A stretch of DNA of 64,000 bases from an uncultured Mycoplasmatota bacterium (GTDB lineage: Bacteria; Bacillota_I; Bacilli_A; Izemoplasmatales; Izemoplasmataceae). Positions within the stretch are counted from its first letter, which is position 1. Each line of letters opens with the position of its first letter. Below the pieces are notes generated by a model, which was not told the DNA's origin, searched no databases, and saw only the letters and a list, made by a program, of their open reading frames with translations. The DNA lies in the NCBI GenBank assembly GCA_913062645.1, contig CAJXVW010000002.1, forward strand, positions 62,001 through 126,000. The letters run 5' to 3'. Positions 59,108 to 62,341 of the stretch are shown here, piece after piece. The position numbers and the translations under genes were made by a program.

Positions 59108-60637
59108 TTAGAGGAAAATCAACGATATGGCAACGCCGATGACACCGGCGATGGCGAGTACGGCGAGCGCCTTGGTCGGCATCTTGCCGTCGTTGGTCAT
59201 GGCTTTGCCGAACATGCCGAAGACCAATGGGTGGATCAAGAACGGCATGGCGAAGATGAAGTTGATCAGACCGGGACTGCTGATGGCGGTGTTGACGGAG
59301 TCGAACATGCCACCCTGCACCGCTGCGAACAGGCCGAAGTGCGAAATCGCACTGCTGTTGGCCATCGCCGCGTTTTCCAAATCCATGCCGGCGAAGTGGA
59401 GCATCGTGAATCCACCGAATACGGCGACCAGCTGCCAGCCGATCGAAAACAGAATGAGACCTTTGATCTGCGCTTTCTCCTCGCCGTTGGCACCCCGCAA
59501 GGTGGTGAGTGCGAAATACGTCAGAACCGCACCCAGCAACACAACCAAGAGACCAGGGATCACCAGCAAGCTGCCGCGGGTGACGCTGATGGCGAGAATC
59601 GTGAACACGAACAGATGACCGAAGAACGGAATGTTGATCATGATCGGCGCCCGTTCTTTGGCGACTTCACCGATGTCACCGGCCGTGCAAGCACCGGTCA
59701 GACCACTGTGCGACAAGCTGCCGGCCATGCCGGGAGCGAGAATGTCGACGTGATTCGATTTGCCGATGAAGACAAGCAGACTGATTCCGACGAACATCCA
59801 GAACAATTGGCCGAAGAACCCATAGGCCATGACTTGCAGCATGCCATCCAACGAAAATGCTTCAAGGAGTCTCGTTCCCCCAACGATGAACACACCGGCG
59901 AGAACAATTGGAATCCCACCGAAGAGCAATGCCCGCATCGTCGGTCCCGGACGCCAGTCACTGAAGAACATGCCGAGTCCGCTTGACAGCAACATCGCGA
60001 AGAAGATCTGTGGCAGGGCGATGATGGGTTCGACTGCCAGTGAGATGACCTGGGCAAGCACCAATACGGCGAGGATCACAAGCAGTTCCACGATTCCGCG
60101 ACCCAGATAGACCCGTTTGTCATGAATCTTCGCTTTGCTGTCGATCAGGATGATCGACACGGCAATGCCGAAGAATGCCAACATCGGATAGAAATCATCC
60201 AATACGCCACCGGTCGGGTAGATGATACGGTAGATCGAGAAGATTCCGATCAATATAAAGAACGCGCGCGTAAGGAACACCAGTTGCGTTCCTTTCGTTC
60301 CGAGAATGACCTCTTCTTCGTTCAATACGACATCATCGTCCTTCGGTAATTTCGGTTTCCAGAACGTGTTGCGCAGTTTCTGGCCACCGGTGAAGAACGT
60401 GGCGATGAGGGCGATGATCGTCGTTCCGCCAGTCAGTCCGACAATCGGGAATTCCGCGAGTCCCGGTTCCGTCAGACCGCTCACTTCGAGCACCATGCCA
60501 AGGGCGAGCCCGAATACGACGATGATCAGAATCGGCGAATACTTCGATCCAGCCACCACGCTGCGAGCGATCAGCACGACCACGAGCAGCATCGCCAACG
60601 TCAACAGCAAATGCGTGAAAATCTCATACAGTTCCAT
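59108..60637 (-). CDS. Multispanning membrane protein of unknown function, transporter-like
   Basis: The 509-residue protein has about twelve hydrophobic helices and is not a family I can name. It has a soluble loop after helix 3 (WKPKLPKDDDVVLNEEEV) and a Gly/Ser/Thr-rich reentrant-type segment (PGMAGSLSHSGLTGACTAGD) typical of ion-coupled transporters. A second segment in the C-terminal half (FGLFAAVQGGMFDSVNTAIS) resembles it. ATG 60637 follows GGAGGTATC. It is a single-gene unit with an unusually long, foldable leader. Confidence 0.75.
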   Translation of the reverse strand: MELYEIFTHLLLTLAMLLVVVLIARSVVAGSKYSPILIIVVFGLALGMVLEVSGLTEPGLAEFPIVGLTGGTTIIALIATFFTGGQKLRNTFWKPKLPKDDDVVLNEEEVILGTKGTQLVFLTRAFFILIGIFSIYRIIYPTGGVLDDFYPMLAFFGIAVSIILIDSKAKIHDKRVYLGRGIVELLVILAVLVLAQVISLAVEPIIALPQIFFAMLLSSGLGMFFSDWRPGPTMRALLFGGIPIVLAGVFIVGGTRLLEAFSLDGMLQVMAYGFFGQLFWMFVGISLLVFIGKSNHVDILAPGMAGSLSHSGLTGACTAGDIGEVAKERAPIMINIPFFGHLFVFTILAISVTRGSLLVIPGLLVVLLGAVLTYFALTTLRGANGEEKAQIKGLILFSIGWQLVAVFGGFTMLHFAGMDLENAAMANSSAISHFGLFAAVQGGMFDSVNTAISSPGLINFIFAMPFLIHPLVFGMFGKAMTNDGKMPTKALAVLAIAGVIGVAISLIFL

Positions 60638-60640
60638 TGA

Positions 60641-60790
60641 TACCTCCATAAATATGTTTTTGGTATATTAAAAGGGTGTCGATTACGGCATCCTCTTAAT
60701 GGCACATCCGTTCCCCGAAGCATCGCGGAACCAAGTCGAATCACAAATGTTCTGTTCTTGTTACAGTGTGGCCGTTTCTGGCCATTACTC
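60641..60790 (-). ncRNA. Structured leader of the unknown transporter gene, candidate riboswitch
   Basis: The RNA starts where a closing helix begins. P1 is TAATGGC (60781-60787) pairing with GCCATTA (60697-60703). Inside are P2 CACA-CTGT-loop-ACAG-bulge-TGTG and P3 GTTCC (60727-60731) with GGAAC (60710-60714), giving a three-way junction. Downstream, ATACC (60662-60666) can pair with GGTAT (60641-60645), which overlaps the ribosome binding site GGAGGTATC, a possible expression platform. It matches no riboswitch class I recognise. Confidence 0.45.
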
Positions 60791-60794
60791 CATC

Positions 60795-60823
60795 ATTATA
60801 GCACGAACCCCGTTCAATGTCAC
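60795..60823 (-). promoter_or_regulatory. Promoter for the unknown transporter gene
   Basis: -35 GTGACA (60818-60823), 17-bp spacer, -10 TATAAT (60795-60800), minus strand. The predicted start site coincides with the beginning of the structured leader. Confidence 0.7.
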
Positions 60824-60832
60824 TTGAAAGTG

Positions 60833-62341
60833 TCAATGTGGGACGATCATGAACGTCAGACGCTGATCGTATTCCACGGCCCCGTTTTCAAACAAGACCA
60901 CAAGACGACCGTCACTGAGAACCCCCAGATCGCTGTAGCCGGATGGTCCGGCGTAGAGTCGCACGAATGGCGTGAACGTCGCTCCACCGTTGTCCGACAC
61001 CAGCAGCATCAGATTGTATCTTGCCTGATAATCGTACGGTCCGCTGTAGTATACCATTCCATCTCGCGATGCCAGTCCGCTCATGCAAAGCGGCGTCGGC
61101 ACCGATCGGTTGGCCACCGAATCAGTCCAAGTCAGTCCGCCGTCGTACGACGTCGCGAACAACTTGTCGATGTCGCCGTGCGGCACTGCCATTCCCACAT
61201 TGGCCCGCGTCGTCATCAGGATGGTGTTGTCATCGAGGATGGCGATCGCCGTTTCGTCTCCTTGGTTGGAACTTGCGCTCATGGACCATGTTTGTCCATG
61301 GTCGTCGCTGTAGTAGACGAGTCCGCCTTCGTCGTACCCGGGAACGAGGAGACGTCCCGCGTGGGGACCGTTCTCGAGTTGCACGCCGTGTCCGGGTCCG
61401 ACCCCGACATTGGCGAACAGCAAGGTCGCGTCGGACCACAACAATCCACCATCTTCACTGGTTATGACATAGGCGCCATTGGGATTGGAGTCGTCATAGA
61501 AGGTGCGCATGTGAACCATGTGGATGACGCCAGTGTCCGCGTCGAACACCGGCGTGAAATTGCCAAGCTTGTTGGTGCCCAGATCAAGAAACGACGGATC
61601 GCTCCAGGTCTGTCCCAAATCATCGGAATACGACATCACCATGTCGATGTCGCCATGGTCAGGGCTGCCGTTCTTGCGCGCTTCAGCAAACAGGAGGATG
61701 CGATCGGAAATAAGATCGTCCCCACTTGCCAGACTGCTTCCCTCGGGAATCACCAGCACGCTGGGAATGCGGTAACTGCCGTAGTTGTCCTGTCCTTGCA
61801 CGAAGACATGGGTCACATTGATTCCATCGTACATTGCGAAATCCGTTTGTGCCGCACCCCAGATGACGAGTACGATCAACAACAAAACGACGTTGATGTG
61901 CGGGAGATAATGATGTTCTTTCACAGTGCCGACATGGAACCGGACGCTGTCGATCGTCACTTTACCAAGCAACAGGATCAATCCGTACAATGTGCTATAA
62001 ATGGCCGGGTCGTAGATTGCGAACGGCTGAAAGTAATCAAACAGCGCAGCCTGAAGAAAGGCGATCACGAAAAGTCCGTTGAGCGTGATCAGAACCACGG
62101 TGATGAGGAACTTGCGTCTGGCCGACAACTGGATGACGGTTGTATTGCGGTGTCGCAAATAGACGTTCCACAGCATCACGGCCAGCATGTCGAGCACGAT
62201 CAGTACCAGGATCGTCGCCACCACTCCGAAGCGCTTGATGATCGCCTGGTTCTTCCACAAGAAGTGATAGACGCCATTGGCGAAGAAATACACGATCGCC
62301 AGATCGTATGCGGCGTATAGATAGTGCAGTACTCTTCTCAT
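60833..62341 (-). CDS. Membrane-anchored sialidase (GH33-like) with multispanning N-terminus
   Basis: The 502-residue protein has about five N-terminal helices (residues 1-165), then a sialidase propeller. It shows YRIP (first Arg), FAEARKNGSPDHGDID (acid/base Asp), GRLLVPGY (second Arg), ARYNLMLLVSDNG (third Arg), and PSGYSDLGVLSDG (Tyr region). Asp-boxes such as SDDLGQTWS, SDDHGQTWS and SYDGGLTWT recur. It probably cleaves terminal sialic acid outside the cell. The polytopic anchor is unusual, because sialidases are mostly secreted or single-anchored. Confidence 0.88.
   Translation of the reverse strand: MRRVLHYLYAAYDLAIVYFFANGVYHFLWKNQAIIKRFGVVATILVLIVLDMLAVMLWNVYLRHRNTTVIQLSARRKFLITVVLITLNGLFVIAFLQAALFDYFQPFAIYDPAIYSTLYGLILLLGKVTIDSVRFHVGTVKEHHYLPHINVVLLLIVLVIWGAAQTDFAMYDGINVTHVFVQGQDNYGSYRIPSVLVIPEGSSLASGDDLISDRILLFAEARKNGSPDHGDIDMVMSYSDDLGQTWSDPSFLDLGTNKLGNFTPVFDADTGVIHMVHMRTFYDDSNPNGAYVITSEDGGLLWSDATLLFANVGVGPGHGVQLENGPHAGRLLVPGYDEGGLVYYSDDHGQTWSMSASSNQGDETAIAILDDNTILMTTRANVGMAVPHGDIDKLFATSYDGGLTWTDSVANRSVPTPLCMSGLASRDGMVYYSGPYDYQARYNLMLLVSDNGGATFTPFVRLYAGPSGYSDLGVLSDGRLVVLFENGAVEYDQRLTFMIVPH

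Follow-up and report, generated by a model that had tools for sequence, protein, structure and literature searches.

A small hairpin with conserved A.C mismatches, new to Rfam, in the leader of an orphan transporter gene of wall-less bacteria and their relatives

The leader of an orphan transporter gene in the window, a stretch of 64,000 nucleotides that is part of a 1.99-Mb genome (G000:C2) related to the Izemoplasmatales, carries a small conserved hairpin that is new to Rfam. The hairpin is present in a single copy, is linked to this one gene, shows covariation in its stem, and conserves both its U-tract and its mismatches. Read from these features, it is most likely a gene-specific cis-regulatory element of the terminator type in the 5' UTR, an interpretation to which we give a probability of about 0.5. 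The hairpin is a modest but real new cis-element and not a demonstrated riboswitch class. A first-pass annotation of this DNA had correctly singled out both the leader and the orphan transporter, but the structure that it drew was wrong. A limited search of the literature found no description of the hairpin. The features of the locus, listed in the direction of transcription, are as follows.

60638-60823, minus strand: leader of the gene at 59108-60637
60795..60823, minus strand: sigma-70-type promoter, GTGACA-17-TATAAT, with 11/12 consensus matches
60697..60787, minus strand: variable leader spacer, not alignable among orthologues, in which the first-pass annotation had placed the helices P1-P3
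60667..60700, minus strand: window-specific stem extension, AUUAAGAGG/CCUUUUAAU, with outer A/U pairs partly kept in relatives
60674..60693, minus strand: conserved hairpin core, GGAUGCC-GUAAUC-GACACCC, with A.C and C.A mismatches, found in 13 aligned orthologous leaders and in genome G241
60670..60673, minus strand: U-tract UUUU directly 3' of the hairpin, terminator-like
60643..60647, minus strand: Shine-Dalgarno sequence GGAGG, seen in the sequence and not part of the conserved hairpin
59108..60637, minus strand: gene for a 509-aa multispanning membrane protein, downstream of the leader, without a Pfam/NCBIfam model

The promoter had been recognised correctly at the outset, on the minus strand from 60823 down to 60795, and GTGACA-(16/17)-TATAAT also lies ahead of four orthologues (L002, L003, L010, L013). 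Orthologues are present in assemblies of Candidatus Izimaplasma and of Tenericutes/Acholeplasmataceae. The start codon, ATG at 60637 on the minus strand, lies 36 nt downstream of the hairpin, and the GGAGG is found in the same position in most relatives. Depending on the species, 32 to 112 nt separate the -10 element from the hairpin, and this intervening sequence cannot be aligned. Immediately upstream of the leader (60833-62341, minus strand), the window encodes a BNR-repeat (sialidase-like) protein whose N-terminal region is hydrophobic; none of the other genomes examined has this gene next to the transporter. In L002, the cre (CcpA) consensus is matched perfectly about 133 nt before the ATG, just downstream of the -10, and L012 has a cre-like site with one mismatch; these sites suggest that catabolite control of the transporter is possible in some species.

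About 20 nt of the leader are nearly unchanged across the clade, while the leader sequence on either side is randomised and unalignable. In the leader alignment, the conserved block reads AGGAUGCC-N6-GACACCCUUUU and lies directly upstream of the Shine-Dalgarno region; in the window leader, the hairpin core pairs with a probability above 0.96. With the pairs numbered from the base of the stem, all 13 aligned leaders have G-C at pairs 1, 2 and 5 and C-G at pair 7. Pair 3 is A.C in 10 leaders, G-C in L003 and U-A in L018 and L019, and pair 4 is U-A in 11, C.A in L018 and A.C in L019. Pair 6 is C.A in all 13, and remains unrepaired in 14/14 when a fourteenth copy of the common type, that of G241 (L151/L162), is included. 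The loop-closing pair 8 is G-C in nine leaders, A-U in L015, U-A in L018 and L019, and A.C in L012. Every mismatch in the core is an A.C on the sense strand; the second of them, at pair 3 or 4, is nearly invariant. A single transition would repair either mismatch, and at pair 6 it could fall on either side. The loop is free in sequence and measures 6, 7 or 8 nt, its length being shifted by 1-2 nt in L018 and L015.

Three pairs have changed on both sides in a compensatory manner, including the loop-closing pair (G-C/A-U/U-A). The covariation score of 0.121 exceeds that of shuffled alignments (0.055; 0/500 shuffles as high) and of all slid registers, although the number of independent events is small, as L018 and L019 are sisters. 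At 53%, the GC content of the window departs strongly, for this group, from the 28-35% of most related loci, so that the identity of the block is not a product of base composition or of recent common ancestry. Downstream of the stem, at least four U residues follow in 13/13 aligned leaders, and the opposite 5' A-tract is not kept. The hairpin thus has the layout of an intrinsic terminator in all aligned leaders, even though the A.C mismatches weaken the stem and the U-run is short, with 4-6 U and a predicted stem energy of -5 to -10.6 kcal/mol for most leaders. L003 has a stronger version, with U6. A generic terminator scan did not report the window's own hairpin. In 0.89 Mb of fetched sequence, 164 terminator-like hairpins have a GC clamp and TTTT; of these, only nine versions of the element and two chance cases have exactly two A.C mismatches. 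As most versions of the element had been fetched for their transporter, this count shows no more than that such mismatches are uncommon in terminators.

The hairpin was found in 14 leaders of the transporter, with one copy per genome. In the transporter tree, all carriers fall into one clade (100/100 support), of which a single member, L017, is without it. The transporter itself is present in 14/90 genomes of the order and in 80 further loci across phyla. Within the order, the hairpin precedes it in 9/90 genomes, and these same nine are the genomes whose transporter reaches 79% identity or more; the five with transporters less than 75% identical have no hairpin. Strong matches to the CM, above 38.5 bits on the sense strand, fall in the same nine genomes with two exceptions, a true copy in G052 at 38.4 bits and an ordinary terminator in G065 at 38.6 bits. 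As this terminator is level in score with the weakest of the true copies, the model separates the two by sequence context and not by score alone. Across 395 genomes of the class, one further strong match was obtained, that of G241, which belongs to another family; there too the hairpin precedes the transporter, which is 89% identical; the lower matches in the class are fully paired ordinary terminators or weak, unrelated sequences. In the window genome, both pattern and model give a single convincing copy. A regulon was considered and set aside for this reason, the other matches there and in relatives being coding sequence, weak, or fully paired terminators.

The genes next to the transporter differ in every genome examined, which indicates that the hairpin travels with the transporter gene; for the same reason, gene neighbours gave no clue to function. 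An 89%-identical transporter with the same hairpin thus occurs in another family of the class (L162 of G241; also L011), and most genomes of the window's own order lack the gene. Together, these observations make horizontal transfer of the transporter gene plus its leader likely. The transporter of L011 (Tenericutes bacterium MO-XQ, L011:3001-4527) has an in-frame TAA at codon 18, which is either a recent pseudogene mutation or a sequencing error. L017 has lost the motif: in the same place between promoter and Shine-Dalgarno sequence, it has a fully paired canonical terminator hairpin with U7, about 80 nt before the ATG, and the predicted start of transcription lies about 14 nt upstream of this hairpin.

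The gene product is multispanning, transporter-like and without a named family, as first described, and in 37 transporter homologues no Pfam/NCBIfam model passes its cut-off. Conservation is high: across Mollicutes relatives, Bacteroidales, Spirochaetes and Exiguobacterium, identity is at least 52%. Many carriers, judged by record titles and names, are alkaliphiles or halophiles, including organisms from soda-lake or saline sources. A plasmid homologue was considered as a route to annotation, but its record has no annotation at the position of the transporter. An AlphaFold2 model was obtained with a mean pLDDT of 85 and a pTM of 0.85. In VIA-align, CPA antiporters, among them SOS1, NHA2, SLC9C1, NhaP1 and NapA, fill nearly all of the top rows together with CitS (Z 9.4-7.6, where values below 13 are not proof for helical proteins). 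The model aligns with antiporters of the CPA/NhaA fold (SOS1, NHA2, NhaP1, NapA) and with CitS over residues 6-485, with Z of 9.4 to 8.0, whereas the transporter has no detectable sequence similarity to solved structures, and Foldseek alone gives the model no significant match (E > 0.001). The predicted fold would be nearest to the Na+/H+-antiporter-like elevator transporters, a similarity that is suggestive only.

Because the conserved piece is a terminator-like hairpin of 12 pairs, control at the level of transcription is the more likely possibility. RNA polymerase would start at the GTGACA/TATAAT promoter and pass through a spacer that varies in both sequence and length before reaching a short, GC-clamped hairpin and the U run behind it. 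The two A.C mismatches would make this a weak stop, such that some transcripts end and others read through into the transporter gene. The balance between termination and read-through would be set by a factor or condition under which the mismatched hairpin becomes more stable or melts. Consistent with attenuation, a hairpin with a U-run lies between promoter and start codon, an arrangement seen in the window and in nine relatives with a recognisable promoter, and stronger forms occupy the same position in L017 and L003. We infer that the hairpin terminates transcription and that this termination is regulated, with the qualification that a short U-tract and a weak, mismatched stem may terminate poorly. 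In the leaders of Bacillota, terminators and attenuators (T-box, PyrR, LicT-type and riboswitch platforms) have the same GC-clamped hairpin and U run at the same position between promoter and Shine-Dalgarno sequence. The window element differs from them in having no conserved upstream sensor or antiterminator, in its two conserved A.C mismatches, and in being absent from Rfam; no alternative (antiterminator) pairing is conserved among the leaders. Three other candidates were rejected. As an antisense terminator, the element pairs better, but the run that this would need (the 5' A-tract of the sense strand) is not conserved. A second promoter, with a -35 in the 3' arm (CGACA/TTGACA), has a fitting -10 only in L010, L013 and L015. 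A leader peptide is not supported either, as short open reading frames occur in some leaders, none is conserved, and the frames across the hairpin vary or stop.

Two conserved A.C mismatches would be superfluous in a plain terminator, and the failure of the pair 6 mismatch to be repaired in any copy points to specific recognition rather than to merely stopping polymerase. The hairpin could accordingly be read as the site at which a trans factor binds, such as an RNA-binding protein specific to this gene, with the GCC/GAC core and its C.A mismatch as the recognised feature and the likeness to a terminator secondary. The persistence of both mismatches despite their easy repair suits such a site, as do the freedom of the loop in length and sequence, the free outer stem and the single copy per genome. 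Nevertheless, no regulator gene is linked to the transporter, its neighbours being different in every genome, and recognition of this kind leaves the conservation of the U-tract unexplained; we regard it as possible but rather improbable.

The recognised feature might also be DNA, as the core is an imperfect palindrome (GGRTGYC-N6-GRCAYCC) downstream of the promoter that could serve as operator for a dimeric repressor. The inverted repeat is indeed present at the DNA level, and the antisense strand would pair fully through G.U. However, the spacer varies by 1-2 bp (L018, L015), which would shift the half-sites, pair 6 always has C on the left and A on the right and is never swapped, and the T run is conserved on one side only, all of which make an operator unlikely. 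Similarly doubtful is the notion that the hairpin is the remnant of an ordinary terminator of an upstream unit, with no part in controlling the transporter. A hairpin does follow the stop codon of a same-strand upstream gene in L004 and in L005-L007, which are more distant; judged by reading its translation, this gene looks like a butyrate kinase. In the window and most relatives, however, the hairpin stands between the transporter's own promoter and start codon with unrelated genes upstream, where a useless terminator would be lost and the A.C mismatches would not stay conserved.

The conserved mismatches fit either recognition by a factor or the use of an A+.C pair. Such a pair forms on protonation and is isosteric with G.U. 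Protonation of a C-A+ pair in an RNA internal loop is exemplified by U6 (PMC6859860). It is conceivable, although we think it quite unlikely, that the hairpin is itself the sensor, in that protonated A+.C pairs would keep the terminator stable, and the transporter off, at lower pH, and the hairpin would melt, turning the transporter on, under alkaline conditions. The attraction of this reading lies in a product that looks like a cation/proton antiporter and in the many homologues from soda-lake, alkaliphilic and saline organisms. There are precedents for leader elements of cation-transporter genes: the Na+-I riboswitch (DUF1646 motif), which acts through an intrinsic terminator (PMC9337991), and the Li+ riboswitches (nhaA-I; PMC9646797) control genes similar to the window transporter. 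Yet the Na+ aptamer has stems P1 and P2 of its own consensus, and no Rfam riboswitch matches the region before the window gene or its scanned orthologues. The alx PRE of E. coli is a large pH-responsive leader that switches translation through pausing (PMC3874183). It resembles the window leader in acting in cis before a membrane-protein gene, with pH a conceivable signal here as well; it differs in that the window element is a hairpin of 12 pairs outside the Shine-Dalgarno sequence, for which a pH response is hypothetical only.

A position just upstream of the Shine-Dalgarno sequence, and the strong local hairpins of L003 and L017, would be compatible with a stabiliser or processing site at the 5' end of the mRNA, without switch function. 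A predicted distance of about 25 to 105 nt from transcription start to hairpin, and mismatches that would weaken a stabilising hairpin, make this very unlikely.

The first-pass annotation had instead drawn a three-way junction (P1-P3) closed by a 7-bp helix, and proposed an orphan metabolite- or ion-sensing riboswitch with a translation-level platform, looking to covariation among orthologous leaders for confirmation. No conservation or covariation of P1-P3 was found in any aligned orthologous leader. The arms of P1 (TAATGGC/GCCATTA) are present in the sequence, at 60781-60787 and 60697-60703, but the structure built on them is unsupported. A perfect 7-bp helix enclosing 40-100 nt is found in 19% of dinucleotide shuffles of the leader, and the folding energy of the region enclosed by P1, -25.9, does not differ significantly from that of shuffled sequences (mean -21.0, p = 0.07). 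In the full leader, the pair probability of P1 is 0.001-0.006, as the same bases are taken by the stem of the conserved hairpin and by a local TGGCC/GGCCA hairpin. The whole leader folds with z = -2.0, which appears to be carried mainly by the conserved downstream hairpin. Similarly, the ATACC/GGTAT pairing said to hide the Shine-Dalgarno sequence is possible in the window and missing in relatives. The three-way junction is thus not conserved and probably does not form. What survives of the structured leader before an unknown transporter is a conserved RNA element absent from Rfam, in place of the P1-P3 architecture.

The expectation that the leader would match no known riboswitch family was borne out. 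The window leader has no Rfam match up to E 10, the sole sub-threshold match (RAGATH-11) being unrelated and outside the leader, and at the gathering threshold no riboswitch matches the regions before the scanned orthologues. A new riboswitch class would call for a separate conserved, covarying aptamer domain; in the aligned leaders, only the terminator-like hairpin is conserved, and with no aptamer-like domain conserved upstream, a sensing riboswitch with a translation-level platform is unsupported. A P1-P3 aptamer governing access to the Shine-Dalgarno sequence, whose pairings can be drawn in the window sequence alone, is therefore scarcely credible, P1 being unconserved, below 1% in probability and equalled in 19% of shuffles.

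A concrete hairpin of 20 nt replaces a drawing made from a single sequence, and marks one clade of an uncharacterised, highly conserved transporter family, whose hairpin carriers are a group of wall-less bacteria and their relatives. The invariant C.A, a single mutation away from repair, is unusual in a terminator-like hairpin, and leads to the prediction that repair of this pair 6 mismatch alone should alter regulation. Should the hairpin prove to respond to pH or to a cation, it would rank with the smallest condition-sensing leaders known, and the response would disclose the substrate of the transporter.
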